From Terriglobia bacterium (GTDB lineage Bacteria; Acidobacteriota; Terriglobia; Terriglobales; Acidobacteriaceae): a stretch of DNA of 64,000 nt. The notes below the pieces were generated by a model. That model did no database searches, was not told where the DNA came from, and saw only the letters and a list, made by a program, of their open reading frames with translations. Positions 1 to 28,943 of this stretch are shown piece after piece (positions within the stretch are counted from its first letter, which is position 1; each line of letters begins with the position of its first letter). The stretch is taken from contig JAIQGE010000017.1 in assembly GCA_020072815.1 (NCBI GenBank), forward strand, positions 1 to 64,000. The letters are read 5' to 3'. The translations under genes were made by a program, and so were the position numbers.

Positions 1-53
1 TCCAGACGGAAGTAGTAGAACAGTGACTCGGTCCGGGATTGTTCACCCATCAT
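1..53 (-). CDS. IS transposase, N-terminal fragment running off the left edge
   Basis: Reading the minus strand from position 53 gives two ATG codons followed by GEQSRTESLFYYFRL and the edge of the window. That opening matches the N-terminus of IS1182/IS4-type transposases, which I know to start with M(M)GE..R.E.LFYYFRLE. An AGGAGGAG ribosome binding site lies at 62-69, eight bases before the first ATG, so the start is well supported. Only about 17 residues are present, so the family assignment is provisional. The outer end of the element should lie shortly to the right, probably within 100-180; I could not identify the terminal repeat because the other end is outside the window. Confidence 0.75.
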   Translation of the reverse strand, partial: MMGEQSRTESLFYYFRL

Positions 54-930
54 CTGGTGTGCTCCTCCTGAACATCTCATTAGCACACTTGATGATCATC
101 ACCAACAACAAAACCCGGATGTGCAGCCGAGTTTTTCAATAGTCTCATCTGCTTTTGAAACGCTGCACTTTGGTTGTCTGAGTGTCTTAGAATCAGCTAC
201 TTGACCAAGCTCTCGCTGGCAGCCTTTTGGAACGACATGAGAGTCATGCCAGATGGCGCCTGCGAAAAAGCAAAGATTCCCAGGAACAAACCGGACCTTG
301 GAGATATCTAAAACAAACAAGCAATCCTGCATCGCACTTTGCCAGTGTGAGACGCCGGTTTCAAGGCTTTACACTGTGGTCTTTTTCCGACGAACTTTTA
401 GCCCGCAGGCTTGCTAATGGATTAAGGCATTTTAACAATTTGTCTTGACACGATTATTAGCCAGGACTAACATCTGGCCGCTTCTAAAGGGACCTCTCTC
501 GCGAGTCTCTGGCCCTTTGCCAGAGAGGGTTTCCCGAGCCAGCCTCCGTTTTGAAGGCTGGGCAGGAAAAGGGGTTGTGGCTTCTCTCAACAAGCCACTC
601 GGCATAACTTCCGGAGCCGATATGTTAAGCACGCACTCACAGACGACCGTCTTTGGGTTCCGTCATCCGCGTTCGAACCTCGTTTGCAGGGATCGCGGTC
701 TAAAGTGCGCGTTTGACCTCATTATTCTTAGGCTTCTCCTCATACGTAAATCGTAACCGCACGGAGCGCGGTCCTCTTCCCCTGACCGCTCTGGACGCCT
801 CGGTCAATCCCGCGCGTAGCAGAGTTTGTTGCGCGACGTTCCCCCAACGGCAGAAGAAATCTCAACCAGCCGAGATTCTTGCGGCTGCAGGCCCCAGGTG
901 GAGAAGGAATCAAACACCAAGGAGAAACAC
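54..930. other. No convincing gene; leader and IS-flanking DNA
   Basis: Short open frames on both strands here have no recognisable product and no consistent ribosome binding site. The left part is the untranslated end of the IS element. The right part leads into the multicopper oxidase gene. The only structure I see is the hairpin at 506-526. I see nothing else I can support. Confidence 0.5.
506..526. other. Perfect 8-bp stem-loop
   Basis: TCTCTGGC (506-513), five-base loop, GCCAGAGA (519-526). An alternative pairing of 492-499 with 523-530 is also possible, so two mutually exclusive structures can form. There is no T-run, so it is not a clean terminator. It lies about 400 bases upstream of the multicopper oxidase start. 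Confidence 0.4.
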
Positions 931-3228
931 ATGGGTCGCAGAGACGACAATGACCATTTCTGGCTTTCGGAAAAGTCTGACAGAGCAAGGCTGCGAGCGG
1001 CAGAAGACGCACGCAGAAACCGAGCAGAGATCACCAAAGCTTTATCACACGGCCAAGTTTCGCGGCGGGAACTGGTCAAATGGGGGCTGTTCACATCGGC
1101 GGGCATTCTGGCGCCCATCGGCGGGCTGAACCCCTTTGTCCAGCCGGTGAACGCGCAGACGGCCAGCTTCAGCAGCTTCGGCGGCAGCCGGGGAAGCGGC
1201 AGTGGCGTCCCCACCGGGCTGCCGAAGAGCCCGCTGTTTGGCGTGCAGCCATTTACCACACCAATGCCGCGCTTTGACCTATTGCCGCGCATCCCGGTTG
1301 CGAACTTGAATCCCGTTCCCGAGGCACAATCCAACCAAACACAGCAGCCGCTCGATCCCAAGCTGGTCGGCGGACAGACGGGACTGACAGGACCCATCGA
1401 AGGGCGTCCACCAGGAGCGATTTGGGCACACCAGAGGTTTACCCAGTTTGCTCCGCAGATTGCGATTGAGGTCAACACGGCGCAGGCTGCCACCAGTACC
1501 ACTTACAATCCCGGCGTTCCCTCCAGCCTGAACTCCGGCATTGATCCGACGCAGCCCATACCGTTGAAATTCCATCCCGGATTGCCCACGCAACAAGCCA
1601 ATTCCGTATGGACGTTCAACGGGACGGTTCCGCCCAAGCTGGGGCAAGTCCGTTACGGAGAGCCGGTGCTTTTCCGCAACCACAACCGGCTGCCCGCGGA
1701 CGTGACCCAGAACAACGGCTTCGGCCGGAATACCATCTCTACTCACGAACACAATGGCCATCATGGGGCGGAGAACGACGGCTTCACCGGCGCCTATTTC
1801 TTTCCCAACCAGTTCTATGACTATCACTGGCCGTGGGTGCTGGGCGGATTTACTACTATCAACACCACAGCCACCGATCCGAAGGCCGGCGCGCCGGACG
1901 GCAGCGGCGGTATCAACAAGGTCGCGGGCGACTGGCATGAGACCATGAGCTCGCACTGGTTCCACGATCACATGTTCAGCTTTACAGCGCAGAACGTGTA
2001 CAAAGGCATCGCTGCGATGAACAACATTTACAGTTCGCTCGATCGCGGAAACGAAGGGATCAACGACGGCGTCAACCTGCGGTTGCCCAGCGGCACCACC
2101 AAAGACTGGGGCAACGTGGACTACGACGTCAACCTCATGTTCGCCGACAAAGCCTGGGACGCCAACGGCCAGCTCGCCATGGACATCCTGGCCTTCAACG
2201 GTTTCCTGGGCGACGCCATGACTGTGAATCTCACCTACAGGCCGTTCTTCGAGGTGGAACGGCGCAAGTACCGGTTCCGCCTTCTGAACGCCGCCGTGTC
2301 GCGCTTCTTTGTATTCGCGCTGAGTGACAGCTCAGCCATGATCCAGATCGGCAATGACGGCAATCTGCTTCCCAACCCGGTGACCCTGACCCAGCTTGAC
2401 CAGTTAGGCATCGCCGAGCGGTATGACATCGTCATTGATTTCTCCCGCTACAGCATTAACCAAACCGTAGACCTGGTTAACTTGCAGGAGCAAACAGACG
2501 GCGCGCTGCCGGGCCAGATACTCTCCGTATCGCAGGCACTGGCTGGTTCGTCCAGCGACCCGTGCGTCGGCAGGTGTCTACGATTCAAGATCGTGCGGAA
2601 CCCTGCCCAGGCTGATCAGAGTCAGGTACTGGCCACGCTCATCCCGAATCCTGACTTGTCGGCCATTCCGATCGCCCGGCAACGCACCATGGTCTTCGAC
2701 GACCGGGCCAACCAGACCACCAACGATCCCATCACGTCGTACACCGGCGGCGGTGATTGGGGTATCGGGGTGGAAAACACTGGAGGTAGCAGCAGGCACC
2801 GGGGAGGCTCGGCGCTCAAAGCCGACTTCGGCCGCATCTCATCGGCGCCGAAGTTCGGCACGCGAGAGGTCTGGACCCTGCAGGGAGGCCGTAACTGGGA
2901 CCATCCCATCCACATCCACTTTGAAGAAGGCCAGACTCTCGCGCGCAACGGACAGGCCAGCCAGGTTCCGGCGTGGGAGAAAGGCCGCAAGGATGTGTAT
3001 CGCCTGCGTCCCAGCGGAAGCGTCACCATCACCATGCAGTTCCGTGACTGGGGCGGCATGTTCATGGAACACTGCCACAACACCGAGCACGAAGACAACG
3101 CCATGCTCATGCGCTGGGAGATCAACAACGCCGGAGGCGTGTTCCTGAACCCGCTCCCAACCCCGATTCCCCGGCCGACGGGAGTAACGTTCCAATCACC
3201 GGACGACATTCTTGCGAATGCATTCTGA
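931..3228 (+). CDS. Tat-exported multicopper oxidase
   Basis: 765 residues. The chosen ATG follows AAGGAG with six-base spacing; the frame is open further upstream but without such a site. A twin-arginine motif SRRELVK at residues 44-50 precedes a hydrophobic stretch ending near VNAQ (73-76), so the protein should be exported folded with copper. All four copper-ligand clusters are visible: HEHNGHH at 272-278, HWFHDH at 342-347, HPIHIH at 658-663 and HCH at 714-716 with H720 and M725. The last cluster gives a type 1 centre with an axial methionine. The enzyme should oxidise a substrate or metal in the periplasm and reduce oxygen to water. Substrate is unknown. The first cluster differs from the usual laccase HWHG. 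The next gene encodes a SCO-cytochrome c fusion, which supports a copper/redox unit. Confidence 0.9.
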   Translation: MGRRDDNDHFWLSEKSDRARLRAAEDARRNRAEITKALSHGQVSRRELVKWGLFTSAGILAPIGGLNPFVQPVNAQTASFSSFGGSRGSGSGVPTGLPKSPLFGVQPFTTPMPRFDLLPRIPVANLNPVPEAQSNQTQQPLDPKLVGGQTGLTGPIEGRPPGAIWAHQRFTQFAPQIAIEVNTAQAATSTTYNPGVPSSLNSGIDPTQPIPLKFHPGLPTQQANSVWTFNGTVPPKLGQVRYGEPVLFRNHNRLPADVTQNNGFGRNTISTHEHNGHHGAENDGFTGAYFFPNQFYDYHWPWVLGGFTTINTTATDPKAGAPDGSGGINKVAGDWHETMSSHWFHDHMFSFTAQNVYKGIAAMNNIYSSLDRGNEGINDGVNLRLPSGTTKDWGNVDYDVNLMFADKAWDANGQLAMDILAFNGFLGDAMTVNLTYRPFFEVERRKYRFRLLNAAVSRFFVFALSDSSAMIQIGNDGNLLPNPVTLTQLDQLGIAERYDIVIDFSRYSINQTVDLVNLQEQTDGALPGQILSVSQALAGSSSDPCVGRCLRFKIVRNPAQADQSQVLATLIPNPDLSAIPIARQRTMVFDDRANQTTNDPITSYTGGGDWGIGVENTGGSSRHRGGSALKADFGRISSAPKFGTREVWTLQGGRNWDHPIHIHFEEGQTLARNGQASQVPAWEKGRKDVYRLRPSGSVTITMQFRDWGGMFMEHCHNTEHEDNAMLMRWEINNAGGVFLNPLPTPIPRPTGVTFQSPDDILANAF

Positions 3229-3233
3229 CCAAC

Positions 3234-3264
3234 CCCGGCGCGCGCCATGGGTGTGGGCGCCGGG
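3234..3264. other. GC-rich intergenic stem-loop
   Basis: CCCGGCGC (3234-3241) pairs perfectly with GCGCCGGG (3257-3264). It begins six bases after the multicopper oxidase stop and is not followed by a T-run. It may protect the upstream message 3' end or partly attenuate transcription into the SCO gene. Confidence 0.45.
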
Positions 3265-3355
3265 CACCTAGCCATCAGATAAGGGAAGTTGCGGGTCCTG
3301 CTTCCGCATCGCGTGTGGGCGGGACCCGCTTCCGAGGACTGCAAGGAGGTTGGAA

Positions 3356-4339
3356 ATGTTGCGCAAACAGTTTGTATTCCTGCTGGGCAGTTTTGCATTA
3401 CTAGCGGCCATCATCGCGGCCTTATTCGCGCCATCGGTATTAGCGGACCGCCTGCCTGCCGACCGTTTTCCCAATATCGAACTCACCACTCAGGACGGGA
3501 AGAAAGTTCATTTTTACGACGATCTGATCAAAGACAAGATCGTGGCCATTAACCTGATCTACACCCATTGCGAGTATTCCTGCCCGCTTGAAACCGCGCG
3601 GCTGGTGCAGGTGCAGAAACTGCTCGGCGACCGGGTTGGAAAAGATATCTTTTTCTATTCCATCAGCATTGATCCCAAGCGCGACACGCCCGAAGTCCTG
3701 AAGGAGTACGCCGAGAAATACCACGTTGGCCCAGGATGGCTGTTTCTCACCGGCAAGAAGGACGAGATTGATTTCCTCAGCAAGAGACTCGGGCTTTACT
3801 CCGATCCCGCCGTTAGCCTGGACGGGCACACGCCTCATCTTCTGATCGGGAATGAGCCCATGGGCCAGTGGATGCGCAACTCCGCGCTCGACAACCCGCG
3901 TTTTCTTTCGCAGATGCTCGGCGAGTTTATTGACAACTACAAAAACGCAAAGCTGACGCAGCCGTCCGCTCCTGCCCAGGCGGCAAAGCTCAACTTCGAC
4001 AAGGGACAGTACCTTTACACGCGGCAGTGTGCCCCCTGCCACACCATCGGCAACGGTGACAAGATCGGGCCGGACCTGCTGGGCGTGACCAACGTGCGCA
4101 ATCGCGATTGGTTGGTACAGAAGCTCCTGAAACCGGACCAGATGCTGGCTGACAAAGATCCGCTCACTTTGGCGCTAAATGAAAAATATAAGAACGTAAA
4201 GATGCCGAACCTGCGCCTGAGCGACGAGGAAATCAACATCCTGATCGCCTATATGGTGTCGCAAACCTCGGCCCACGACCGGGAAGGGGCAGCCGCAAAA
4301 ACGGGAGGCGGCGCAAGCGCGCAGCCTCAGCCCAAATAA
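3356..4339 (+). CDS. SCO1/SenC copper chaperone fused to cytochrome c
   Basis: 327 residues. The ATG at 3356 is preceded by AAGGAGGT (3343-3350), a near-perfect ribosome binding site. An N-terminal hydrophobic segment (about 5-30) anchors or exports the protein. Residues about 35-195 form a thioredoxin-fold SCO domain with the copper-binding CEYSC (72-76) and the conserved distal histidine in DGHTPHLL. Residues about 215-300 are a class I cytochrome c domain with CAPCH (225-229) and a candidate axial methionine near 283. The tail is a low-complexity Ala/Gly/Gln stretch. SCO proteins deliver copper or electrons to CuA centres or act as thiol-disulfide reductants. The haem domain suggests electron exchange with the neighbouring multicopper oxidase (inference). 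Confidence 0.92.
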   Translation: MLRKQFVFLLGSFALLAAIIAALFAPSVLADRLPADRFPNIELTTQDGKKVHFYDDLIKDKIVAINLIYTHCEYSCPLETARLVQVQKLLGDRVGKDIFFYSISIDPKRDTPEVLKEYAEKYHVGPGWLFLTGKKDEIDFLSKRLGLYSDPAVSLDGHTPHLLIGNEPMGQWMRNSALDNPRFLSQMLGEFIDNYKNAKLTQPSAPAQAAKLNFDKGQYLYTRQCAPCHTIGNGDKIGPDLLGVTNVRNRDWLVQKLLKPDQMLADKDPLTLALNEKYKNVKMPNLRLSDEEINILIAYMVSQTSAHDREGAAAKTGGGASAQPQPK

Positions 4340-4357
4340 GGAACTCCGGCAACTCTG

Positions 4358-5200
4358 ATGTATTGGCCTGCATTTGAATTCGATTACCGCCTTGATCTTG
4401 CTCGGCTCATGCCGCACATCGCGGCCATTGAGTCCTACCGGCAGGCTGCCGTTACGCGTGTGCTTCCGCCGCAATGGCGGGAACAGCCGGTCCGGCCTGA
4501 TTCAAATTCATCAGAGAACCTGAAGGCCGCCCACCTGGCCCAGGCGCGCGCCTGGGTGACCGAGCGTTTTACCCCGGCGAGCGCTCCGCTTTCCCTGGAC
4601 GATCTGCTGACCATGCACCGCATCGCCGCCGACCCAACCAACCCGGAGTGCACGCCCGGAACTTTGCGGACCCTGCCCGTTCAGGTGGGACGGCGCGAGG
4701 TGGGCGGTCTGCACCTGGGAGCGCCTGCGGAGAGCCTGCCAAGGTTGATGGAACAATACATCCAGTTCATCACCAGCGAAAAATCGCTGAAACTACATCC
4801 TGTCATGCACGCCCTTGTGGCCCACTTCTTCCTGGTGACCATCCACCCGTTTGATGATGCGAATGGGAGAGTCTCCCGCCTGCTCACCGCGGGACTTCTC
4901 TCCCAGCGCGGCTACAACGTGCACGGCGGGTTTTACGCCTTCTCCGCATACTTCTACCAGAATGACATCGAGTACCACACGCTTCTTCACCGCTGCTGGC
5001 TGCTATCCCCTCCGTTTGATCTGACCCAGTTCGTCGCTTTTGGCATGCAAGGATTTGTGATGGAGTTAAGGAGCATTGACAGTTTTGTGAAGATGAAACT
5101 GAACCGAATCGTCGACCGCGAGACGCTGATAGCGGCAGCACACCGGAAACGCTCTAGGAGATTCGGTCAGATGACTCATCGCTCGGCAGTTTTTCTTTGA
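4358..5200 (+). CDS. Fic-domain protein (probable AMP transferase)
   Basis: 280 residues, starting 18 bases after the SCO-cytochrome stop, so probably co-transcribed. The catalytic Fic loop HPFDDANGR lies at 163-171 and keeps His, Asn and Arg, so nucleotidyl transfer to a target hydroxyl is expected. SNSSEN at residues 49-54 fits the (S/T)xxxE(G/N) inhibitory helix seen N-terminal to the Fic core in class II proteins, so the enzyme may be self-inhibited. There is no signal peptide. The C-terminus ends soon after the core and is shorter than in many chromosomal Fic proteins, which often add a winged helix, so truncation is possible. The target is unknown. Confidence 0.85.
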   Translation: MYWPAFEFDYRLDLARLMPHIAAIESYRQAAVTRVLPPQWREQPVRPDSNSSENLKAAHLAQARAWVTERFTPASAPLSLDDLLTMHRIAADPTNPECTPGTLRTLPVQVGRREVGGLHLGAPAESLPRLMEQYIQFITSEKSLKLHPVMHALVAHFFLVTIHPFDDANGRVSRLLTAGLLSQRGYNVHGGFYAFSAYFYQNDIEYHTLLHRCWLLSPPFDLTQFVAFGMQGFVMELRSIDSFVKMKLNRIVDRETLIAAAHRKRSRRFGQMTHRSAVFL

Positions 5201-5216
5201 GTAGTCGTTTAGAGCA

Positions 5217-6818
5217 TCATTTGTGCAGATAGAACAAGCCCCGTTCAATCTGTGACTCGCAGTCACGGAATGCCTCGGCAAGATTTTCCAGCAGGTCAGT
5301 GGCGAGCACGGTGTTTTCATGGAGAATATCGCGGGAAAGGTCGCCTGTGAGCCCGTGCAGATAAACAGCGGCGGCAACGTGCAGGTCGTGAAGAAAAGCG
5401 GATGAGGTCTCTCTTCGCCTGGCCAGCGCCGCGCCAATGATGCCGGAAAGAACGTCACCCGCCCCACCTTTGGCCATGGCGGGATTGCCTGTCATGTTGA
5501 TCCAGGTTTCTCCTGATGCGCCAGAGATGATCGTTCTCCATCCCTTAAGCACCGCGCAGGAGCCGGTCTCACGCGAGATGTGGCGGGCAACTCCAACCCT
5601 GTCTGCCTGGACATCTTTGATCGTGGTTCCGGTCAGCCGCGCAGCCTCTCCGGGATGGGGCGTGAGGACGCGGAAGGGCGCTGCGTCACCGCGCGGCTTC
5701 AGTTCGCCATAATGTCCGGCGAATGCATTCAGGCCGTCGGCATCGAGGACTAGCGGCAGCCGACAACCAGCCACGAGATTCCGCACATACTCTGCTGTCT
5801 GATGATTGCCCGATATCCCTGGACCGAGAACAATAGCGTCTTTCCCAGCCAGGAGCGAATCCATTTTCCCGGCTGCATCGAGGGCAATCGTGCCGCTATC
5901 TGTTTCTGGCAGGCCTTCCGTCATGAGTTCTGGAGCAAAGCCGGCAACGGTCTGCTGAATTGATTCTGGGCACGCGACAGTCACCAGGCCCGCTCCGGCG
6001 CATAGCGCCGCCATTCCCGCAAGGCCGGCGGCCCCGGCCTTGCCGCGCGAACCTGCAATCACCAACACGTGCCCAAAATCCCCTTTGTGTGAGTCGCCGG
6101 TTCGCGGAGGAAATGTGATTCCCACTTCCTGGGCGGTGACGACCTCCAATCTTGTTTGGTTGGAAACGAGTGCGGGCTGTACGCCCAGTTCGCTCACCGC
6201 GACGGGACCTGAGGTCAACTCACCGAAAACATGCGCCGGTTTCGGGGCGACGAAGGTGACGATTCCGTGGGCGAACACCAGATCAGAGGCGTTCTCGAGC
6301 ATGGGAGCCTTGCCGTCACCGTCAACTCCAGCGGGAAGATCGAGAGAAACGACTGTGCCGGATACATCGTTGATTGCTCTTACAGCTCGCAAGGCCAGGC
6401 CATCCAGCGGGAGGGGGGACCCGCAACCGGCAATGGCGTCGATAATCAGGTCGGCAGCAAGCGCTTGTTGAACTGCTTCCGATTCGAAACCGGCTTCGTC
6501 GCCTAGCCATATCGGACCAGCAGCGAGTTGCGAGCTAAGGGCTTGTGCGTCCGGATTCAGTTCGCCCAGCGCTGTTGCCAGAAGCATGACAAAGACATCT
6601 TCGGAAACTCGAGACAAGGCCTGAGCCGCAGCTAATCCCGCGCCGCCAATTTCGCTTTCCCCGCATACTACACAGACGGACCGGAACTTAAAATGAGCCA
6701 AGCAAAACTGCGCTGCGGCATAACCCGCCCGCTGTTTGAGTAGCAACGTGGAAACCTGCGGCCCACTGGCCACCTGAAGCGCCGCTTGACGCACTTCATC
6801 GCAAGTAAGGATTCTCAT
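5217..6818 (-). CDS. nnr: Bifunctional NAD(P)H-hydrate epimerase/dehydratase
   Basis: 533 residues from the ATG at 6818 (MRILTCDEV, the usual YjeF opening); a GTG six codons upstream is less likely. Residues about 1-215 are the YjeF_N/NnrE epimerase domain and about 225-530 the NnrD ADP-dependent dehydratase domain. Together they repair hydrated NADH and NADPH. The dehydratase half looks intact: a GSRGKAGAAGLAG nucleotide region, VLTPHPGEA and GGAGDVLSG with the catalytic Asp. The epimerase half is unusual. The family GNNGGDG loop reads GESEIGGAG (53-61), although IDAIAG and DLPAGVDGDG are kept. The gene is convergent with the Fic gene, 16 bases apart. Confidence 0.9.
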   Translation of the reverse strand: MRILTCDEVRQAALQVASGPQVSTLLLKQRAGYAAAQFCLAHFKFRSVCVVCGESEIGGAGLAAAQALSRVSEDVFVMLLATALGELNPDAQALSSQLAAGPIWLGDEAGFESEAVQQALAADLIIDAIAGCGSPLPLDGLALRAVRAINDVSGTVVSLDLPAGVDGDGKAPMLENASDLVFAHGIVTFVAPKPAHVFGELTSGPVAVSELGVQPALVSNQTRLEVVTAQEVGITFPPRTGDSHKGDFGHVLVIAGSRGKAGAAGLAGMAALCAGAGLVTVACPESIQQTVAGFAPELMTEGLPETDSGTIALDAAGKMDSLLAGKDAIVLGPGISGNHQTAEYVRNLVAGCRLPLVLDADGLNAFAGHYGELKPRGDAAPFRVLTPHPGEAARLTGTTIKDVQADRVGVARHISRETGSCAVLKGWRTIISGASGETWINMTGNPAMAKGGAGDVLSGIIGAALARRRETSSAFLHDLHVAAAVYLHGLTGDLSRDILHENTVLATDLLENLAEAFRDCESQIERGLFYLHK

Positions 6819-7168
6819 CGCGGACCAAAGTGCCACCGCTGAAGTTTCAGCGGACCGGGTTTCCCGGCGTGTGCAGTATACAAAGCCGAGGCCGCAGGAC
6901 CAAGCGCTGCGCCAGGTGCCCGACTCCGTTCCGGACGTGTGGTTGGCAATGCGGAAGTAATCCGGGCGCTCTCAGCGGTGGCGCTGTCCAGAAACGGGCT
7001 TGTGGGAAGCGCCATTTAAGGTTTCGAGCACGTAATCGGTCGACCGGCTATACGCAAGCGATTACACCTTTCGAGTCCGTTTGCCCCCTGCGCAAGAAGA
7101 GAAAGTAACGTTCCATCGGCGGTCGTCAGCGGCAACGCTGCCCTGCAGTGCAGTGGCTGACGAAGGAA
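6819..7168. other. Upstream region of nnr; no gene seen
   Basis: Roughly 350 bases between the nnr start and the end of the small-gene trio. Open frames on either strand lack family resemblance and ribosome binding sites. It should contain the nnr promoter, but I cannot point to convincing boxes. Confidence 0.4.
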
Positions 7169-10727: not shown

Positions 10728-10905
10728 CAGCCAACAGCGCTCCAGAGAACAAGGCGAGCATCCGCCTGATGGTTGCGCCGGACCGCTGAAGAAAGTGAAA
10801 TCAGCGAAATCTAGGACAGACGGAAATGACCCCAACTGATTGGTTCCAAGTCGGGGAATTCGCCTTTCTGTGATTCCGAGGTTATCGATCGAGAGGAGTG
10901 TCTTC

Positions 10906-13409
10906 ATGGGGACTTTACTTCAGGATGTTCGCTATGGTCTGCGCATGCTGGTTAAGAAGCCCACATTCACGATCGTGGCTGTCCTGACGCTGGCTCTGGG
11001 CGTGGGAGCCAACACGGCCATTTTCAGCATCGTGAACGCCGTGCTGCTCCGTTCTCTTCCGTTCCCCGACCCCGACCGTCTCGTAAGGATCTACTTTAAC
11101 AACCCAGGGGTAGGATTGCGGGGCGTTCGGTTTTCCGTTCCGGAATTCGACGATCTTAGAACGCAGACGGATGTGTTCGAAGATGTGAGTGTCATCGTTT
11201 CGGGCCCCACAAACCTGACCGGCGCCGAACAGCCCGAACATTTGGAAATGGTCGAGGTTTCTCCCAAATATTTTTCCATGCTCGGCGCCACTCCCGAACT
11301 AGGGCGCTTATTTGGTCACCAGGACTTCGCGCTCGGTTTCGCGCCCGTGGTCGTGATCAGCGATGCCTTGTGGCGCCGATCTTATGGGGCTGATCCTGGC
11401 GTCCTCGGCCGCAGCCTCCGCCTCGATAACGATCTATACACCATTGTAGGTGTACTTTCTCCCGGATTTCGCCACCCCGGACCGACCATTCCAGCCGTGG
11501 AGGTGTGGATTACCTGCGGATTCAGTGGCGATCCGTACCCAGCGCCAGCGCGTGGTCTGCGCATACTACCAGGGGCAATCGGTCGTCTCAAGCCGGGCCT
11601 CACCCCAGCGCAAGCTCAGGCGCGGCTTGATGCCCTGACTGCTAATTTGCGTCGCGAATTTGCGAATGATTACCCTCCGCAAGCCGAATGGACGATTGAG
11701 ATTCTGCCGTTGCAGCAATCGTTGGTGGGCAAGGTTCGGCCGATGCTGGTCGTGTTGATGGCTGCCGTAATCTTAATCGTTTTCGTCGTGTCTCTAAACA
11801 TTGGAGCCTGCTTCTGGCGCGCGCCTCTGGACGACAGCAAGAGATGGCAGTGCGCGCGGCGATGGGAGCGAGCGGCGGCAGAATGATTCGGCAGATGCTC
11901 ACCGAATCGCTGTTGCTGGCTTTCATCGGGGGAATCGCAGGGCTCACGACGGCGGCGATTACGCTGAAAGTCGTCTTGCGATTTGTGCCTGCGAATCTTC
12001 CGCGGCTGGGCGAAGTAAACATTGATTGGCGGGTGCTGGGATTTGCGTTACTGATTTCGGTCGCGACCGGGCTACTGTTTGGGCTGGCTCCCGCGATTCA
12101 TTCCTCGAAGGCGGGACTTGCGAGCACGATGCGCGAGGGCTCGCGCGGCTCGGGCTACAGTGCGAAGGCCGGGCGCATGCGCGATGCGCTGATGGTGTCG
12201 CAGCTGGCTTTTGCGGTAGTGCTGATGGTCGGCGCAGGGCTCCTATTGGAAACGCTGCGCGATTTGTTGCGGCAGAATCCGGGCTTCAATCCATCGCAAG
12301 TGGTGACGGCGAATATCTATCTGCCGAACCCGAATAATCCGCAGCTCGATTCATATCACACCTTCGCGCAGCAGATTCCGTTTAATCGCGAACTGCTGCG
12401 GCGCGCGAACGCGATTCCCGGCGTGGAGTTGGCGGCGATTACGTCCAATTTGCCGGCCGCCGACACAATTAACAACGATTCGGCGGCCTACGGCGCCACG
12501 AATCACAATTCGCTGGCAATCGAAGACCGGCCCACGGAATCCTCGGGAGATTTGAGCGCCGAAATTATCCGCATCAGCCCGGATTATTTTCGGGTGATAC
12601 AAACACCGCTGGTGGAAGGCCGCTTTTTCACCGAAGCCGACGAGAACGGCAAACTGCCCGTGGTAATCATCGATGAGGCGACGGCAAGGCGCTACTGGTG
12701 GCCGGATCATGATCCGGTGGGCCGGCGCCTGCGTATCCGGTTGCGTTTCGGGCAGAATCCTGTGAATCCGTGGAGCACCGTGGTGGGCGTGGTGAAAGAT
12801 ATCAAGCACGACGGGCTCGATGTCGATGGCGTGCCGCACCTCTATGTCCCGCTGAATCAATTCGTCGGGCGGACGTTGAGCTTGGCGCTGCGAACTTCGT
12901 TGCCGGCGAGCAAGCTGGAGGCGCAAATTCGCGGCGCGATTCAGAGCCTGGATCCGGGGCTGCCGGTGTTCAACGTCACCTCGATGGATGAGGTACTGGA
13001 TGCATCGCTGGCATCGCGCAGGTTTTCGGCGAATTTGGTAGCGGGATTTGCGGGTGGGGCGCTCTTGCTGGCCTCGATCGGAATTTACGGTTTGCTGGCC
13101 TACATGGTCAGCCAAAGATCGCGCGAGATCGGTATCCGCATGGCCCTGGGTGCGCGGCGGGACGACATTCTGAGGATGTACTTGCGCAAGGGGGTCGCGC
13201 TTGCTGGCGTGGGCATCGTTGCCGGATTGGTCTTTTCTGCAGCCACTGCGTCCATGATGGCAAGTTTGCTCTATGGGGTGCGCCCCCATGATCCGGCTGT
13301 GTTTCTGATCGTGCCTCTGCTTTTGCTGGCAGTGGCCGCGCTGGCTAGCTATCTCCCAGCACGCCGCGCGACGAAAGTGAACCCAATGATTGCCTTGCGC
13401 GAGGCATGA
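10906..13409 (+). pseudogene. ADOP-type MacB/FtsX permease with a single frameshift
   Basis: A GAGAGGAG site precedes ATG 10906. The reading frame opens with MGTLLQDVRYGLRML and a MacB_PCD domain, runs to about 11804, then continues in another frame from AGC at 11805 (SLLLARASGRQQEMAVR) to the stop at 13409. Adding one base near 11803 gives an uninterrupted protein of about 834 residues, the normal ADOP length, with two FtsX permease domains of four helices each. The break falls in the first FtsX domain. In the first frame it would end at 11886 after a nonsense tail. ADOP permeases resemble MacB efflux components but lack a partner ATPase gene. One missing base could be real or an assembly error. 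Confidence 0.85.
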
Positions 13410-13814
13410 ACTCGCCGTTTGACCTACATGGTCGGTCGGCGGGCGCACGAGAGTCCGCATGGCGCCGGGAGCCATGCCCTCAACCATTGAAAAAATGATG
13501 GTGAGCTGGGGCGCGAAGTCTGGCCGGCATCGGACGGCAATCCGGTTCTTTGCCTTTAAATTCGCTCGCATGAAGGAGTAGGAAGCCAATATCTGTTTAT
13601 CGGTACGTCCGTCTCGAAGTATAGGAAAAACAAAACTCCGCTAATGCAGCACTCAGCACTCAGGTTCGACACCGGAACCGCACAAGCGCTCCGAGCGATG
13701 TAACGGGGCAAGAAAACAACGGGGAGTCGAAAGAGCGTTTTTGGAGGTGGGATTTCTCGGCAGGCGGGCAAACCAATGCAGTCTGTTACCCTGACTTTAT
13801 ACGGAGCTTTAAAA
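13410..13814. other. Intergenic, no gene seen; contains a short tandem repeat
   Basis: No supported coding region. At 13646-13664 there is a short tandem of the form GCAGCACTCAGCACTCAGG, resembling the CAGCATTCAGC units found after uvrB at 49845-49874. Confidence 0.45.
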
Positions 13815-14597
13815 TCATTCCGCCAGTATCGGTGGTAGCCGGCGTACCCACTGCATCCGGCGACCCGAGTGGTCGAGCAGCGGGTCCCACCCGAAGTCCC
13901 GCTTGATGGAAAGAGCCCAAGGGAGGCGTTTGGGGCGCGGTCGTCGTACCTGGCCGATGATCGAGAAGATTGTTGAGAAGTTTTGGCTTACGACCCGGGG
14001 AGCAAACAGTCCAAAATACCGTATGGCGTGCCGATAGGGATCAGGAAGCTGCTTAATCCATCGTTCGATAAACTCTTTGAGCGCATACTTCACCGTTACG
14101 ATACGCCTTAGCCTTTTGTACTTGCCCCCGGCGATCTGATTGGCAAGCGCTTTCTTTTGAAAGTGCGGCTCCAGCTCCAGCGCGAGCACGACCCGAACAA
14201 AATTGTTCCACGCCCGCCGAGGCCGATGGTGGCGAATGATGAACTCAAGCGCCTGTTCGTCAGTGAGCACGTGCTCAATGCACTCAAGGATTGCTTGACC
14301 CTCGCTGACCGCATCATGCCAGGCGGCAAAGCCGGAGATGATGATTCCGTTCGTTGTGATCTCGATTGACTCTGAGAATGCAGGCTCTGTGAATCGAATA
14401 GGCTGATGGGGTTCGGCCGCCAAGTGGACTAGATTCAATCGAGTCAGAGCCGGGTGGGCATGCAGTTTGTCCGGTGAACGTAGAACCAGTTGACGCGGGC
14501 CGTGGCCGTGCCTTAGGAGTGGCAAAGGCGCCGTGACCGGCGAATGGTCCTCTTTAGGAACTTGAGCTTGTTGAAATTCTGCGCTGTTGATTCCCAC
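13815..14597 (-). CDS. Transposase-like fragment (resembles IS91/Y2 C-terminus)
   Basis: 260 residues if the GTG at 14597 is used, but that GTG lies inside a repeat next to the att-like site and the true start is uncertain. The C-terminal part, FIERWIKQLPDPYRHAIRYF followed by GLFAPR, resembles the region of Y2-type (IS91-like) transposases where a lysine/arginine helix precedes RYYG.L; a short DPLLDHSGRRMQW tail follows. The catalytic tyrosines and zinc finger of a complete enzyme are not seen, so this is probably a remnant. Its position beside a tRNA-Glu fragment fits an island end. It could also be an unrelated domain of unknown function. Confidence 0.4.
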   Translation of the reverse strand: MGINSAEFQQAQVPKEDHSPVTAPLPLLRHGHGPRQLVLRSPDKLHAHPALTRLNLVHLAAEPHQPIRFTEPAFSESIEITTNGIIISGFAAWHDAVSEGQAILECIEHVLTDEQALEFIIRHHRPRRAWNNFVRVVLALELEPHFQKKALANQIAGGKYKRLRRIVTVKYALKEFIERWIKQLPDPYRHAIRYFGLFAPRVVSQNFSTIFSIIGQVRRPRPKRLPWALSIKRDFGWDPLLDHSGRRMQWVRRLPPILAE

Positions 14598-14613
14598 AAC
14601 AATCCCACAACAG
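14590..14613. repeat. ATTCCCACAACA repeat, left of the tRNA fragment
   Basis: Contains two tandem CCCACAACA units. A closely similar run occurs at 14774-14794 on the other side of the tRNA-Glu fragment. The pair could be integrase arm-type sites. Confidence 0.55.
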
Positions 14614-14694
14614 CAGCTTGTCTTTAGCAGTCTTTACGGTCCCGCCCGTGCGCCTGCTATGCTGCTAAGTCTTTGAATTGCTGTGCGAATTACT

Positions 14695-14740
14695 CCCTTT
14701 CACGGCGGTAACACGGGTTCAAATCCCGTCGGGGACGCCA
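14695..14740 (+). tRNA. 3' fragment of tRNA-Glu (UUC); candidate attachment site
   Basis: CCCTTTCACGGCGGTAACA is the tRNA-Glu anticodon stem-loop 3' part with anticodon TTC. It is followed by a perfect T-arm (CGGGTTCAAATCCCG) and the acceptor 3' strand ending GGGGACGCCA. The 5' half is missing: no GTCCCCG acceptor strand or D-arm occurs upstream. A 46-nt 3' tRNA remnant is what site-specific integration into a tRNA leaves at the far end of an island. With this orientation the inserted DNA would lie to the left. The intact tRNA-Glu is not in the window. Confidence 0.85.
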
Positions 14741-14773
14741 AAAAATCAAGGGCTTAGAGACATCCTGGCCGTA

Positions 14774-14794
14774 ATTCCCACAACACTCCACAAC
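14774..14794. repeat. ATTCCCACAACA repeat, right of the tRNA fragment
   Basis: ATTCCCACAACACTCCACAAC, the partner of the run at 14590-14613, in the same orientation. Confidence 0.55.
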
Positions 14795-14805
14795 GTTCGT
14801 CAAAT

Positions 14806-15145
14806 TCATGCGTGAAAAGCCGTTCCCGCGCGCATGATCAGGTCCGCCAAAGCTGCTTGTGCCTGGCGTTTCGTTGCTTCGACGGCCTGCTTGTAGCCGT
14901 CCATCGTCGTTTGAATGAAGCAGGCCGCAGAAGTTCCTGGACCATTCGTCCCAACGCAGCAGTTGCATCTCCACACGTTCCGAGGGCTTTGTCACACCAT
15001 TCTCATCCCTATGTTCAGGTAATAGATTTACTGCTCGTCTTCGCGAATGAGCTCTTCGGATCTCCAGCGACACTTCAAGCGGCATTAGATTCGCCAGGGC
15101 TTGATCAACCTGCTGCCAATCAAATGGGATGAGTGGAGAGGACAT
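14806..15145 (-). pseudogene. Unknown small gene, probably frameshifted
   Basis: An ATG at 15145 opens a plausible protein (MSSPLIPFDWQQVDQAL...RVEMQLLRWDEW). Further on, a different frame looks more protein-like (YKQAVEATKRQAQAALADLI) and stops at TGA 14808-14806. A single shift near 14920-14950 would join them into about 110 residues. The uninterrupted first frame instead runs into the antisense of the tRNA fragment, which is not credible protein. No family recognised. It sits at the edge of the mobile-element scar. Confidence 0.35.
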
Positions 15146-15216
15146 GGGTGCTAAACACCTAAAATTACCATCTCGTGACTGAGAGCGCTCCTAAGCGGCC
15201 CGCTTAATGCTGATGA

Positions 15217-15429
15217 TCAGTAGCTCACTGGCTTCCAAACCACAAGATTGTGGAAGGTGATCTGTCTTCCTGAAATCTCTAAATGCAGTGCTGGTGCGCT
15301 TTGAAATGAAGTGGTCCAATGACAATGAACTTTCCCGGTAAGTATCGCTCCTTCATCCTTAAACCCCGCTGGCTGGGCCGTTTGCAGGCCGCTCAGACTG
15401 TTCCTGTCTGCACCATTGACTGGCGCCAT
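15217..15429 (-). CDS. Small protein of unknown function
   Basis: 70 residues. The ATG at 15429 follows GAAGGAAG with a good spacing, the main support for it being real. No signal peptide, membrane segment or known motif; it has one Cys and two adjacent His (KVHCHW) near the middle. It is divergent from the giant secreted-protein gene and shares an AT-rich upstream region with it. Confidence 0.35.
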   Translation of the reverse strand: MAPVNGADRNSLSGLQTAQPAGFKDEGAILTGKVHCHWTTSFQSAPALHLEISGRQITFHNLVVWKPVSY

Positions 15430-15497
15430 GATGGCTTCCTTCTAGCTAAAGTGCTGTCGACGTGGATTTCCCATTTTGGGAATTGTCACAGATGAAA

Positions 15498-15516
15498 TTA
15501 TAGTTTCAAGCTATAA
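15498..15516. promoter_or_regulatory. Palindrome in the AT-rich upstream region of the surface-protein operon
   Basis: TTATAG (15498-15503) and CTATAA (15511-15516) form a perfect inverted repeat with a seven-base centre, an operator-like layout. It lies about 230 bases upstream of the giant Ig protein and 70 bases upstream of the divergent small gene, in a locally AT-rich stretch (15480-15550). Confidence 0.4.
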
Positions 15517-15749
15517 ATTCACTTGACAACTCATAGGTATAAGAGTGATTGTTGCGCGCACAAAACTTATGTGAAGTGTCCGGTCCTGATCTGAGTCCGG
15601 GAAGCTTCAGTCCAGATTGACAAATCATAGCTTCATCCTACTGCGGATCAGTGTGTTTGTATGCGCTAACTATTTCTCGCTTTAAGGTTCCTTATAGATT
15701 TCCTTCAATTGACGGAAGAATGCCTTCTTTCTAACCGGAGATAAAGCAG

Positions 15750-18700
15750 ATGCCGAGAAACAACGCGTTTCAATTCTGCCGAGTGGTCTTGGCCTTTGTA
15801 GCATTGCTAACGGCCGGAACAACTTTGGCTCGAGCCGGAAGTTTTACGGCATTTGGGCCGCAGGACTATGCGCGTGGCACAGGCGCTCCGGTCACCGTAA
15901 CCAATACCTTTTCCGTGCAAAACCCGAACGCGCCGTACACGCTGAAGGTGTTTAACGGCGGACTGCACGACGATGTAACAGAATTGGTATCCAGCAGCGT
16001 AATCACGGTGAATGGCGTTGACGTCATTGGACCCAGCAATTTCAATCAAAACGTGACTGAAGTGGACGTGCCGGTTACGCTTCACGCAAGCAATACAATT
16101 TCAGTTCAGGTCAGGGGGGCACCGGGCGGCCTGCTCACGATCCAGATTGTCGGGACCGACAACGACCCGCCGATCATTCACGCGGCAGTCTCTCCGGCCG
16201 CTAACGCCGCCGGCTGGAACAACTCGCCGGTCACGGTCACGTTTACATGCAGTGACGCGACTTCCGGAATTGCGAACTGTCCGCCGCCGCAAGTGGTAAG
16301 CAACGAGGGTGCAAACCAGATTGTGGGCGGAACAGCCACCGACGTTGCCGGCAACTCGGCGAATGTTTCAGTTACAGTCAACCTGGATAAAACTCCCCCG
16401 GGCCTGAAGATCACGTCTCCCGCAAGTGGTTCAACCATAAATTTGAGCACGTCTACCATCAGCGTGACTGGTTCGGGCAGCGACCAGCTGTCTGGCCTAT
16501 CGGGTATCACCTGCAACGGAACTCCGGCTGTTATTTCTGGCCAGGGTTTTGTCTGCAAGCTTTCGCTCGTCCAGGGAGCCAATTCCATTCCTGTCATAGC
16601 TACCGACGTGGCGGGAAACTCGACTACCTCAACGCTAAACCTCACGTACGCCCCGGCCCCGCTGGTGGCCATCACTACTCCCGCTAACCTGAGCGTCACT
16701 AACCTGACGCCGGTCACGGTGAACGGCACGATCAATGATCCCGCAGCGACCCTGACAATCAATGGAATCAATGCTCCGCAGAGTTCGGGCAGCTTTTCCA
16801 TTCCTGTTCCTTTGGTCGAGGGACTCAACGTTCTGACTGCCGTGGCAAAAAATGCGGCTGGAATCGCGAGCACGGCAACCGTCCAAATCACTCTGGATAC
16901 CACGCCTCCGCACATTACCGTGGACGCTCCCGCGGACGGGTCCGTTACCACCGACGCGACCGTGACTGTCACAGGTTTGGCAAATGACATTGTTGTGGGG
17001 ACGGTGAATGCCCAGGATGTTCAGGTAACTGTGAACGGGATCCCCGCCCAGGTAGCCAATCGCACCTACGCTGCCGTCGCGGTGCCGCTCACGGTGGGCA
17101 AGAACACGATTCAGGCCGTCGCGCGGGACCGTGCCGGCAACGGCACCACCACGAGCGTTAGCGTTACTCGCGTGCTGCCCTCGCAACCGCCTGCGCCCGC
17201 GATCGGAACAGCCGTCATCACCCAGTCGCTTGCGGTGGTATCGGGCAACAATCAGACAGGCACGATCGCGACAAAATTGCCGGCGCCTCTGGTAGTCACC
17301 TTGACTGACTCAGCCAATCATCCGCTGGCGAACCAAACTGTAGTATTCAAGGTCACGGGAAATAATGGCGGCGTCTCTCCAGACGCTTCCACCGCTCCCT
17401 CGCCCGCCCTGGCGGTGAGCACGGATGCGAATGGCCACGCGCAGGTTTTGTGGACGCTCGGTGAACGCTCAGGTGCAGGCATCAACAGTGTGCAGGCTTC
17501 CGCGCCTCTGGCGGTGAGTTCTGTAAATTTCACGGCGACCGGCGTTGCCGCCAGTGCGGCCACCATTGTTGTGGATTCCGGCAACGCCCAGGTGGGCGTT
17601 TTGGGCGCGCCGTTGGCATTTCCGTTTGTGACCGCGGTGGTTGATTCCGGGCACAATCGAGTTCCTGGCGTTCCCGTTGTTTTTACGGTCAAACGGGGCG
17701 GCGGGAACATTGGCGGCGCCTCAAGCCAGACTGTGACCACCGACAGCAACGGACGCGCCATCGTCGTGCTGAACCTGGGTACCGAGGCGGGGAACGACAA
17801 TAACGTTGTGGAAGCAACTTTCCCGGGCAATGCGGGCATATCCGCATCGTTTGTTGCTTCGGCCCGGGCACCGGCCGATCCGGCGAACACATCCATCAGC
17901 GGCGTCGTACTGGATAACAGCAACAACCCGATCGTGGGCGCCACGATGCGGCTGTTCCAGACGAATCAGGGGAACGTTAACAATCTTCCTCAGCAAATCG
18001 GCACACCGGTAGCCACGGATGCGAAAGGGACATTCTTGATTCAGCCGGCGCCCGTGGGCTTCTTCAAGCTGATGGCGGATGGGACAACTGCCACTAGCTC
18101 CCTGAGTTATCCGACGCTTGAATACGACATCGTGACCGTCCCCGGAAACAACAATACCGTGGGAATGCCCATCTACCTTCCGGCCCTCGACACGGTGAAT
18201 AAGCTTTGCGTTGATGAAACCCACGGCGGCACATTAACCCTGCCGCAGGTCCCGGGCTTTTCCTTCACCGTTCTGCCCGGGTCGGCTACCTTCCCCGGCG
18301 GCGCGCGCACGGGCTGCGTCACCGTGACGCCGGTGAACGGCGACAAAGTGCCCATGGAGCCCGGGTTTGGCCAGCAGCCGCGGTTCATCGTGACCATTCA
18401 ACCGGTGGGAACCAAATTTGACCCTCCGGCGCCGATTACGCTTCCCAATGTTGACGGCCTGGCGCCGAACGCCGTCACCGAAATGTATTCCTACGATCAC
18501 GATCTAAGTATGTTCGTGGCCATTGGCACCGGGACGGTCAGTGCCGATGGATCAGCGATTGTCTCCAATCCCGGAGTGGGCGTGCTCAAGGCGGGATGGC
18601 ACTGCGGAGGCAACCCCAATTCGAGCGGCGGCGCAGCGCCCGTATCGGTCTCCATCACCTCAACCCAGTCGCCACAAGTTGAAGTTGGAAAGACCGTCAC

Positions 18701-19601
18701 GATTACCGCTTCGGGAAGTCCCTTGCCCGGTACCTACAGTTGGTCGAGCAGCGACACGACGATTGCCACCATCCAGTCATCCACGGACGGAACAGCCGTG
18801 ATTCTTGGAACAGGAGTCGGGACCGCGACGATCACGGTTACCTTCACCTGCCAGTCCGGGGCCACCGCCACGGCCACGGTGGACGTAAAAGTGACGACCG
18901 CCGACATCGTCATGATCGGGTGGGTCAATTCCAGCGCCATTACTTTGCCAAGCGGCGCCAGTTTCCTTCTGCGTATCGATATAAACACTCCGCTGATCTG
19001 TTCGGCCTTGTTGCTCGACTGGGTTGTTGGATTGCCGACGGACCTGTTTGGCCAGGCCGAGGTCGACTACGCTAACGCGTTCCTGCTTATCCATTCGGGG
19101 AACGCGCAGCCTCCGGCGACGATCAATCCGGACGCCCAACTCGCGGCCGGCGATTTCCGCCTGTTCAACCGCTTACAGGCAACGTACTCTACATCCGGCG
19201 GCACTGTTTCCAACTTCTCGGCCATTCACAGCAACACTCAAGTTGGCACCACGCCGGATCCCTGCGGCTTGGTGGGAAATGCTTCGGGTCAGACCCATCC
19301 TTCAAGCGGCTCCAACGGGGTGACCTCTTCCGGCACGGCTGTATACCAGCTTGCAGAAGGCCGCCTTGGCACCCTGGGTCAGCGCGTGAACCATACCATC
19401 AACGGCACGACCACACCCTGGATCTGGAGCGTCATTCGCTTTGACATTTCAGGCAATCCCGACACTTCCGATCATTCGATCTTCCCTACGTTCTACGTGT
19501 ACCAGGATGGATCGCTGATTGCGACTTACCCGCAGAGCGCTCCAACAGCGTTTATACCGCTGGGAGACACTTATCAGAGACTGCCCTCGCAAATCCAATG
19601 A
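15750..19601 (+). CDS. Giant secreted multi-domain Ig-like protein
   Basis: 1283 residues with a signal peptide ending near ARAG (about 28). Approximate order: unique beta domain (32-130); three or more Ig-like modules with the spacer DxTPP (135-480); two Big_1/invasin-like modules with TDANGHA and TDSNGRA signatures (510-705); a carboxypeptidase-regulatory-like domain opening ISGVVLDNSNNPIVGATMRL (about 712-800); a Big_2-type module (about 970-1045, SSDTTIATI..GTGVGTATITV); and a C-terminal region of about 230 residues I do not recognise. No membrane anchor or sorting signal is visible. This architecture suits a cell-surface or secreted adhesive or scaffold protein. A GGAG site precedes the ATG. 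Its stop overlaps the start of the next gene, so the two are co-translated. Confidence 0.85.
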   Translation: MPRNNAFQFCRVVLAFVALLTAGTTLARAGSFTAFGPQDYARGTGAPVTVTNTFSVQNPNAPYTLKVFNGGLHDDVTELVSSSVITVNGVDVIGPSNFNQNVTEVDVPVTLHASNTISVQVRGAPGGLLTIQIVGTDNDPPIIHAAVSPAANAAGWNNSPVTVTFTCSDATSGIANCPPPQVVSNEGANQIVGGTATDVAGNSANVSVTVNLDKTPPGLKITSPASGSTINLSTSTISVTGSGSDQLSGLSGITCNGTPAVISGQGFVCKLSLVQGANSIPVIATDVAGNSTTSTLNLTYAPAPLVAITTPANLSVTNLTPVTVNGTINDPAATLTINGINAPQSSGSFSIPVPLVEGLNVLTAVAKNAAGIASTATVQITLDTTPPHITVDAPADGSVTTDATVTVTGLANDIVVGTVNAQDVQVTVNGIPAQVANRTYAAVAVPLTVGKNTIQAVARDRAGNGTTTSVSVTRVLPSQPPAPAIGTAVITQSLAVVSGNNQTGTIATKLPAPLVVTLTDSANHPLANQTVVFKVTGNNGGVSPDASTAPSPALAVSTDANGHAQVLWTLGERSGAGINSVQASAPLAVSSVNFTATGVAASAATIVVDSGNAQVGVLGAPLAFPFVTAVVDSGHNRVPGVPVVFTVKRGGGNIGGASSQTVTTDSNGRAIVVLNLGTEAGNDNNVVEATFPGNAGISASFVASARAPADPANTSISGVVLDNSNNPIVGATMRLFQTNQGNVNNLPQQIGTPVATDAKGTFLIQPAPVGFFKLMADGTTATSSLSYPTLEYDIVTVPGNNNTVGMPIYLPALDTVNKLCVDETHGGTLTLPQVPGFSFTVLPGSATFPGGARTGCVTVTPVNGDKVPMEPGFGQQPRFIVTIQPVGTKFDPPAPITLPNVDGLAPNAVTEMYSYDHDLSMFVAIGTGTVSADGSAIVSNPGVGVLKAGWHCGGNPNSSGGAAPVSVSITSTQSPQVEVGKTVTITASGSPLPGTYSWSSSDTTIATIQSSTDGTAVILGTGVGTATITVTFTCQSGATATATVDVKVTTADIVMIGWVNSSAITLPSGASFLLRIDINTPLICSALLLDWVVGLPTDLFGQAEVDYANAFLLIHSGNAQPPATINPDAQLAAGDFRLFNRLQATYSTSGGTVSNFSAIHSNTQVGTTPDPCGLVGNASGQTHPSSGSNGVTSSGTAVYQLAEGRLGTLGQRVNHTINGTTTPWIWSVIRFDISGNPDTSDHSIFPTFYVYQDGSLIATYPQSAPTAFIPLGDTYQRLPSQIQ

Positions 19602-20416
19602 GACATATGCATATCACTGGTATCTCGTTCGGCAAGTGGCTGGGCACATGGTTAGGATGTGCCCTGCTATGTGGGGCGCTATCCCCGGTTCTTTTGGCCC
19701 AGGCTGGACAGACCCGCCCGAAGAGCGTTGACGATGCGATCAACGAGGTCAAACAGGGACAGGTCAATCCGGTGGCCCTGCAACGCATTGCCAGGGCCGG
19801 CGCCGTGGATGCCATTCCGCTCCTTCATCAGCAATTCGAACGTACTGACGAAGACCTTCTGAAAGACGCTATAGCCAGCGCCCTGGTCAGGCTTGGTGAT
19901 AAAGATCGGACCTACTGGGACTTTCTGGAAACTCACGCCCGGGAGGTGATTCAAAGCGATGTTCCCTTTCCCGTTCCGTTTGACACGCAGGGAAACACCG
20001 TAAAGAAGCAATTCGCCCAGGAATTTTTGGAGTGGGCAAAGACCAACCACATTGACCCGCAGGCAGCCGCCACGGCCCAGATGCAGACGGTCCCCGCCCA
20101 GATCAGCTTCCTGGCTGCAACCGGCGACCCAAGAGGACTGGAGTTGCTGCGGAGAGCGATGGCCTCCCGCAACTACTTTGTTCAGGCCATTGCAGCAAGA
20201 GGGTTGGCGAAGCTCCAGGATGTAGATTCCGTGCCTTTGATTATTACGGCCTGCAAGCGGGCCCCCGCGGAAGCTGCGGCGCTCATTGCGCGCTCTCTGG
20301 TGTTTTTCAACACTGCCCAGGCGCAAAGCGCGGCCGAGACTTTCATCAAAAACCGGGAAGTGCTGGACGAACTCCGCAAACTCAGTAGGGATAAGGGAGC
20401 TGACGCATTGTTCTAG
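19598..20416 (+). CDS. Exported HEAT-like repeat protein
   Basis: 272 residues. The ATG overlaps the previous stop (ATGA, 19598-19601), implying translational coupling; a second ATG at 19607 is possible. A hydrophobic signal segment ends near LAQAG (about 36). The mature part is alpha-helical with HEAT/PBS-lyase-like pairs (AVDAIPLLHQQFE, DPRGLELLRRAM, DVDSVPLIITACK), spaced about 30-40 residues apart. No catalytic motif. Probably a periplasmic or surface interaction partner of the giant proteins on either side. Confidence 0.75.
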   Translation: MRHMHITGISFGKWLGTWLGCALLCGALSPVLLAQAGQTRPKSVDDAINEVKQGQVNPVALQRIARAGAVDAIPLLHQQFERTDEDLLKDAIASALVRLGDKDRTYWDFLETHAREVIQSDVPFPVPFDTQGNTVKKQFAQEFLEWAKTNHIDPQAAATAQMQTVPAQISFLAATGDPRGLELLRRAMASRNYFVQAIAARGLAKLQDVDSVPLIITACKRAPAEAAALIARSLVFFNTAQAQSAAETFIKNREVLDELRKLSRDKGADALF

Positions 20417-27640: not shown

Positions 27641-27830
27641 CGTGTCAATTCTCTGGGCTTTATTTCGGGCCACTACAAACGAAGCGGGGCGTGAAACGAA
27701 CAATCATTTACTTTTAAATCATGACACACGCAGACGGAACAAACTGTGCTCAATTGAACAGTTTCGTAAACCCTCTGCCCTATTCGCACTTTTGGCGCCT
27801 CGCCCGAAATTCACAAGCCGCGGCTCCCAG

Positions 27831-28493: not shown

Positions 28494-28943
28494 GTTTTGA
28501 CCCTCCCATGTTTCCCTAGAAATACATTCCTGCCGGGTAGAGCATCGCTCAAGGCCCTCTCCCCTGAAATCATAAAAAAGATACTACCTATCTGGAAGGC
28601 CCATCAAGCTTTCGTACACAGCTATTTAGGTTTGCGGAAATCGGTTGCCTTGCAAAAGCTAAAGATGCGGAAACTGTGCAAAAGAGGACAGCCTTGCAGG
28701 CAGGGCCTTATTTATATTACCCGCCAATAGCTGCGCTGCGCTCTGGAGTTTCGGTGCACCCGGCAGGACGGTTTGGGCGAACCGAGCCCCGGGTTCTGAA
28801 ACTCCTGAGCGTACTACCCGGACCAACCATGAAAAAGCTCTTTTGCGGGAGCTTTTTCTTTTTAGCGATCGAAGCAAACAAAGCACGCTTGTTAGGTTGC
28901 CGGCGCAAACTCGCAAGCGACGTTGCAAAAAATAAATCGGCGG
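28494..28943. other. Intergenic region between the glycosylation cluster and the Crp/Fnr gene
   Basis: Nothing coding that I can support. It should hold the Crp/Fnr promoter and contains the terminator at 28832-28857. Confidence 0.5.
28832..28857. terminator. Rho-independent terminator, usable in both directions
   Basis: AAAAAGCTC (28832-28840), eight-base loop, GAGCTTTTT (28849-28857), then CTTTTT on the plus strand. It lies 87 bases beyond the stop of the minus-strand glycosylation cluster and most likely ends that transcript. Confidence 0.75.

Follow-up and report, generated by a model that had tools for sequence, protein, structure and literature searches.

The locus described here raises a simple question: how did a 46-nt piece of a tRNA-Glu gene come to lie in the window (the whole 64-kb stretch that was analysed, on contig C17), and on which side of it did the inserted DNA lie? 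The original prediction described this piece as the 3′ remnant of a tRNA-Glu gene left behind as an integration scar. This description held up, as the 46 nt have an exact match at C27:20858-20903 in the same genome (46 of 46 nt, 100% identity, E 9.6e-17), which is the second copy of the core that had been predicted. That copy is part of an intact 78-nt tRNA-Glu(TTC) gene called by ARAGORN at C27:20826-20903 (L002:1469-1546). The end of the anticodon stem, the T-arm and the CCA had been claimed to be intact and the 5′ half to be missing, in agreement with a core that corresponds to gene positions 33-78. It contains the anticodon loop with two bases ahead of it, the 3′ stem, the T-arm and the CCA. 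The boundary of the repeat falls in a tRNA loop, with the core starting at position 33 and adjoining the anticodon loop, and the crossover point of the recombination presumably lay within the core. The scar is thus the 3′ part of a tRNA gene of which an intact copy is kept elsewhere in the genome.

No tRNA was called by ARAGORN over the 64-kb window. Furthermore, the resemblance of the 40 nt to the left of the core to the absent 5′ part of the tRNA is no better than chance, with 971 of 1000 shuffles reaching the same score, so that no intact tRNA gene is recoverable at this position, as the reading of a scar supposes. A search of the 5.29-Mb genome with the tRNA and its flanks (E<=10) gave no third copy of the core, and the tRNA part returned only the core, the intact gene and one match of 18 nt. 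The features of the locus are listed in Table 1.

Table 1 Features of the window around the tRNA-Glu-derived core
Feature	Position	Strand	Remarks
Repeat end, probably of an insertion sequence	8..146	-	C17 starts in it; the same end closes C27 and starts C15
Cluster of multicopper oxidase, SCO1/cytochrome c, Fic and NAD(P)HX repair enzyme	826..6836	.	In other contexts in 4/5 congeners examined
ORF with weak Y2_Tnp (putative transposase) match	13815..14597	-	PF04986, E 0.002, 18.6 bits, under the 20.9 cut-off; partial overlap with the left repeats
Left TCCCACAACA repeat pair, spaced 11 bp	14590..14612	+	Putative arm-type sites, ~83-105 nt to the left of the core
ORF reading through the core	14690-15145	-	From the open reading frame list
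46-nt core	14695..14740	+	tRNA-Glu(TTC) gene positions 33-78; 100% to C27:20858-20903
3′ part of tyrosine integrase gene at the end of an element targeting tRNA-Glu	14741..14942	-	Last ~35 aa encoded at 14809-14913; no similarity beyond about 14942
Right pair TTCCCACAACA / CTCCACAAC	14774..14794	+	Putative arm-type sites, starting 34 nt to the right of the core

The repeats that had been claimed on both sides of the remnant proved to be real. The sequence ATTCCCACAACA, allowing for at most one mismatch, occurs at three sites in the 64 kb (14590, 14601, and 14774) against 0.20 expected, and none of 100 shuffles reached three. In its paired form the repeat has two occurrences in the 5.29-Mb genome, which are confined to the two sides of this core, and the reversed control gave none. 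Scored by shuffles that keep base composition only, not dinucleotides, the left pair was reached by 0 of 200. Meanwhile, the right pair alone is weak: 24 of 200 shuffles equal its score, so that on its own it is not beyond chance, and this counts against an attP-like reading of the site. The right pair is kept in the congener G004 and is present in G003 as CCCCACAACACTCCACAACA. Its pattern was found in four stretches of the contig database, from which the window's own records were possibly left out: one belongs to a Terriglobia MAG and three to unrelated bacteria, the latter taken as chance. We regard the flanking repeats as putative arm sites of an integrase; a literature search on arm-type sites returned nothing.

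The DNA to the right of the core also bears the mark of an integrative element. Positions 14741-14942 displayed 83% DNA identity over 202 nt to contig C19 of G004 (86% over 249 nt when the core is included), in an alignment with a one-base gap, and the right flank together with the core displayed 83% identity over 161 nt to contig C50 of G003. In both of these genomes the matching DNA follows an intact tRNA-Glu gene. In G004 there is a fragment of 140 aa (PF00589, E 9.4e-11) in which the C-terminus of a tyrosine integrase faces the tRNA, and the remnant in the window (14913-14809) shares 74% amino acid identity with it over 35 aa. The integrase gene of G004 appears to be broken too, with matches spread over two frames, and a small helix-turn-helix gene (PF12728) is found just upstream of it. 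Protein comparison found no integrase end beside the intact tRNA of G003, where that end is seen by DNA similarity alone, which counts against the attP-like reading. Across the family, the right flank was found in 10 of 300 genomes, our own included.

An uninterrupted relative of this integrase was found in G122, a genome of a different genus. Its frame of 455 codons from stop to stop ends within 10 nt of an intact tRNA-Glu gene, and over 89 aa its product shares 60.7% identity with the G004 fragment. At the att site of the window only the last ~35 aa of the integrase remain, and because the site's own integrase is reduced to its end, the site is probably inactive by itself and would need another integrase to act on it. 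The open reading frame that runs through the core is probably not a real gene. Four integrases about 44% identical to the one at tRNA-Glu adjoin tRNA-Met instead (G111, G135, G198, and G025; L098, L099, L101, and L103), which suggests a target switch within one integrase group. A fifth related integrase (G269, 39%) has no tRNA within its 3-kb stretch.

These findings changed the picture in one respect. The inserted DNA had been placed simply on the left of the core, where an integrase gene was to be sought. The genome has 13 matches to PF00589, and the profile search placed none of them on C17 or C27. The right flank is also an element end, as it carries the integrase 3′ remnant and the same kind of repeats, and about 8 kb away the left flank reaches a gene cluster that four of the five congeners examined (of eight) carry elsewhere.

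The left flank was characterized gene by gene. The open reading frame with the weak transposase match is probably a decayed mobile gene, parts of which displayed 65-74% DNA matches in other genomes of the family. A DNA search of the family with the left flank yielded mostly transposase-like or short matches, in 14 of 300 genomes (own included). Further left are an ABC permease gene spread over two overlapping frames, a weak DUF4440 match, good matches to DinB and RidA, and a LysR regulator. The permease is of the MacB/FtsX type and is split into overlapping frames at 10840-11886 and 11844-13409 (window 10840-13409), through either a frameshift or a sequence error. GC content dips around the scar (0.549 at 13501-15000 and 0.515 at 15001-16500, against 0.54-0.65 elsewhere); together with 0.542 at 27001-28500, these are the lowest values of the window. 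This dip weakly marks the area and gives no boundary. Composition does not part left from right.

The cluster at the far left was compared with G002, G003, G005, G006, and G007 (G001, G004, and G008 were left out, as were aligned stretches of 60 aa or less). It is syntenic in G003, G005, G006, and G007, with identities of 65-77% for the first gene. The stretches read of these four show different neighbours and lack tRNA-Glu, and that of G002 has the last gene alone. The cluster looks like ordinary genus-level chromosome, and it is also possible that it was carried in by an element. Its occurrence elsewhere in congeners argues against a left side made up entirely of one island, and it likewise counts against the reading of an attP-like junction. 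The NAD(P)HX epimerase/dehydratase gene has two copies, at window 5217-6836 and at G000:C5:171181-172584, which are 46% identical; the former adjoins the Fic gene and the multicopper oxidase, an arrangement displayed by four of the five congeners examined.

The intact tRNA-Glu lies close to a contig end. C27 ends 212 nt past the gene, inside a repeat that begins about 73 nt after it. This repeat was found at three contig ends (C27, C15, and C17), and the copy on C17 stands in the opposite orientation to that on C27, likewise that on C15, so that C27 and C17 are not joined through a single copy of the repeat. From its look we take the repeat to be an insertion sequence, which is its probable nature; a profile search for the PF05598 transposase found none in the genome. 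No repeat pair is present in the approximately 73 nt that remain on C27 behind the intact tRNA, suggesting that the gene is now adjoined by a different type of element or by an altered one. Since no unbroken stretch runs from the tRNA to the scar, no element is seen whole here. Both points count against the attP-like reading.

The other genomes of the genus provided insights into how often this gene has been used. Among nine genomes (own included), an intact tRNA-Glu was found in eight, and the one with no match is 81% complete. Five scars are distributed over four of the nine: one in our genome (G000), two in G003, and one each in G005 and G006. An element end stands beside an intact tRNA-Glu in two of the nine, as indicated by protein and DNA in G004 and by DNA alone in G003. 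A sixth scar comes from G216, of another genus, which displays the core without the tRNA 5′ part and, on its right, an integrase remnant 79% identical over 62 aa. Similarity to the tRNA begins at position 33 in G000, 35 and 35 in G003, 31 in G005, 33 in G006, and 35 in G216. A start at 31-35 in all six scars fits a single crossover region.

The order of features in G216 is that of the window, namely repeats, core and integrase 3′ remnant, with left repeats that differ in sequence (0 of 200 shuffles). ARAGORN called no tRNA gene in the 45 kb from this scar to the contig end on the presumed element side. On contig C42 of G003 (L020 7783-8642), two tRNA-Glu scars are separated by 824 bp that include an integrase remnant, and the second scar is shortened at its 3′ end. 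C17 has a single att copy. The two scars of G003 are probably a case of stacking in the same genus. The best direct repeats left of the scars were matched by 0 of 200 shuffles in the window and in G216, 17 and 7 in G003, 7 in G005, and 85 in G006; on the right, the figures were 24 in the window, 8 and 152 in G003, 198 in G005, 74 in G006, and 149 in G216. Hence, the scar repeats are strong in two cases, suggestive in three and without support in G006. That a left pair unreached by shuffles occurs in G216 alone among the other five scars counts against the attP-like reading, as do the 85 of 200 on the left in G006 and the values of 74-198 on the right in four of these five. By eye, a motif TTTCAATCAGTTAC (eighth base C or T) was seen about 13-28 nt left of the core in three of the six scars: G216 (L096), G006 (L022), and the second of G003 (L020).

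G006 is the sole case in which one contig contains both element ends, with 5,489 bp between the scar and the intact tRNA. The segment from tRNA to scar gave no match to any integrase compared. These 5.5 kb (G006:C62; L022 5776-11310) encode Hen1 with Hen1_L and a Pnkp/ligase protein, an RNA repair operon that is lodged in a tRNA gene.

An empty site, joining the upstream side of the tRNA to the downstream flank of the scar, was not found in the stretches read, which are parts of the tRNA-Glu contigs of seven congeners. For this comparison, 107 frames of C17 and C27, each 150 aa or longer, were searched against the tRNA-Glu stretches of the seven congeners and two scar contigs (E<=1e-20, identity of at least 45%), and the matches were the open reading frame over the scar and three genes upstream of the tRNA on C27 (G005). 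The HEAT-type protein encoded at 19598-20413 of the window was found in none of the eight congeners. Meanwhile, a WecG-like protein is present in seven of the eight, never on the contig that bears tRNA-Glu.

There are integrative elements with tyrosine recombinases that use the anticodon loops of tRNA genes. An element that targets a tRNA gene carries a copy of the 3′ part of that gene, and after a crossover in the core the gene is whole again on one side, with the 3′ copy staying behind on the opposite side. The core in the window extends from the anticodon loop to the CCA end, with the tRNA gene restored, as in such elements, and differs from them in that element DNA stands on both sides of it. 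The layout here would read as left arm repeats, tRNA-derived core, right arm repeats and integrase 3′ end. Element ends on both sides would mean either that two elements are stacked at one gene or that an attP has been stranded away from the tRNA. We infer both that the left repeats mark an element end and in which order the integration events took place.

Based on these findings, we propose, with a probability of about 0.8, that tyrosine-recombinase elements integrating at the anticodon loop of tRNA-Glu left an attP-like junction at this site. The internal att copy has element ends on both sides, as indicated by repeats left and right of it and the integrase 3′ end on the right. We prefer a junction of this kind to the edge of a single island because the right flank is derived from an element, the integrase of G122 adjoins tRNA-Glu, and G216 repeats the layout. 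An attR in the simple sense, with one island lying wholly to the left and the integrase remnant on the right being an older, unrelated leftover, seems unlikely to us: the orientation of the core, its intact tRNA partner and the repeats within 105 nt to its left would suit it, yet no repeat pair stands beside the intact tRNA, the far-left cluster is common to congeners, and the right flank is the integrase end of a tRNA-Glu element with the same kind of repeats. Such an attR accounts for the core but not for the right flank. A misassembly of unrelated pieces at the shared tRNA sequence is very improbable. It might be suspected from the 46 bases that are identical in both copies and from contigs that both end nearby in a repeat, but the scar differs from the intact gene in both flanks, its left and right repeats match each other, and G216 has a related right flank joined to its scar. 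As tRNA pseudogenes exist, one may also think of a decayed duplicate of the tRNA gene or another fragment that arose by chance or otherwise without integration. We give this hardly any credence, since identity is total over the 46 nt and absent to the left, the starts cluster at the anticodon loop in all six scars, and an integrase remnant adjoins the core.

Within the attP-like reading, our tentative preference is for a junction in a stacked and decayed array at tRNA-Glu over an attP that was stranded. In the latter case, a single element with its arms, core and integrase would have entered away from tRNA-Glu, by homologous recombination, an insertion sequence or a cointegrate, and its attP and integrase end would be what remains. 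We hold this to be quite possible, if somewhat less probable. It would explain why both repeat pairs match each other and nothing else in the genome, why the genome has no third core, why the DNA on the left soon becomes a cluster that congeners have outside tRNA-Glu contexts, and why no tRNA gene was called in the 45 kb on the presumed element side in G216; the absence of a third core from the assembly counts against an array because a full array of two elements would have one at its far end. Against a stranded attP, the two scars of G003 and the G216 scar, with its unlike repeats on each side, look stacked, and no alternative insertion boundary is seen here.

Stacked elements at RNA genes have precedents. 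A review (PMC5704250) treats the accretion of CIMEs, IMEs and ICEs by site-specific recombination and cites Pavlovic et al. 2004; the site in the window differs in holding no whole element. In Dehalococcoides, genomic islands stand in tandem at the 3′ end of ssrA (PMC3146451). As in the case proposed here, several elements are stacked at one RNA gene and bounded by short copies of its 3′ end, integration genes adjoin the boundary, and some islands are without integration genes (PMC3146451). The difference lies in the machinery and the target: a serine recombinase, a repeat of 20 bp and the T-loop of the tmRNA in Dehalococcoides (PMC3146451), versus a tyrosine integrase remnant, a repeat of 46 nt and the anticodon loop of tRNA-Glu in the window. 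Both the stacking of elements at RNA genes and their decay to remnants flanked by att sites have already been described (PMC3146451, PMC5704250). Among the titles listed by our literature search on tRNA-gene accretion, Acidobacteria islands (10 of 28 listed) and truncation of tRNA-Glu, none mentions scars of tRNA-Glu for this genus; this does not prove that none have been published.

The integration scar is real, well supported and of an ordinary, known kind, with traces of elements on both sides and not on one. General understanding of integration is left unchanged. For annotators, the 46 nt are not a gene, and the core together with the candidate arm sequences can be used to find such elements. 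One may speculate, as an idea that we regard as improbable, that tRNA-Glu is a repeatedly reused docking site in this lineage of soil Acidobacteriota and that complete attP sites stranded far from it persist as armed secondary sites. If so, dispersed attachment sites could receive later elements away from tRNA genes. What the locus confirms, from raw sequence, is that in a soil Terriglobia genus the tRNA-Glu gene has served as an integration site more than once.
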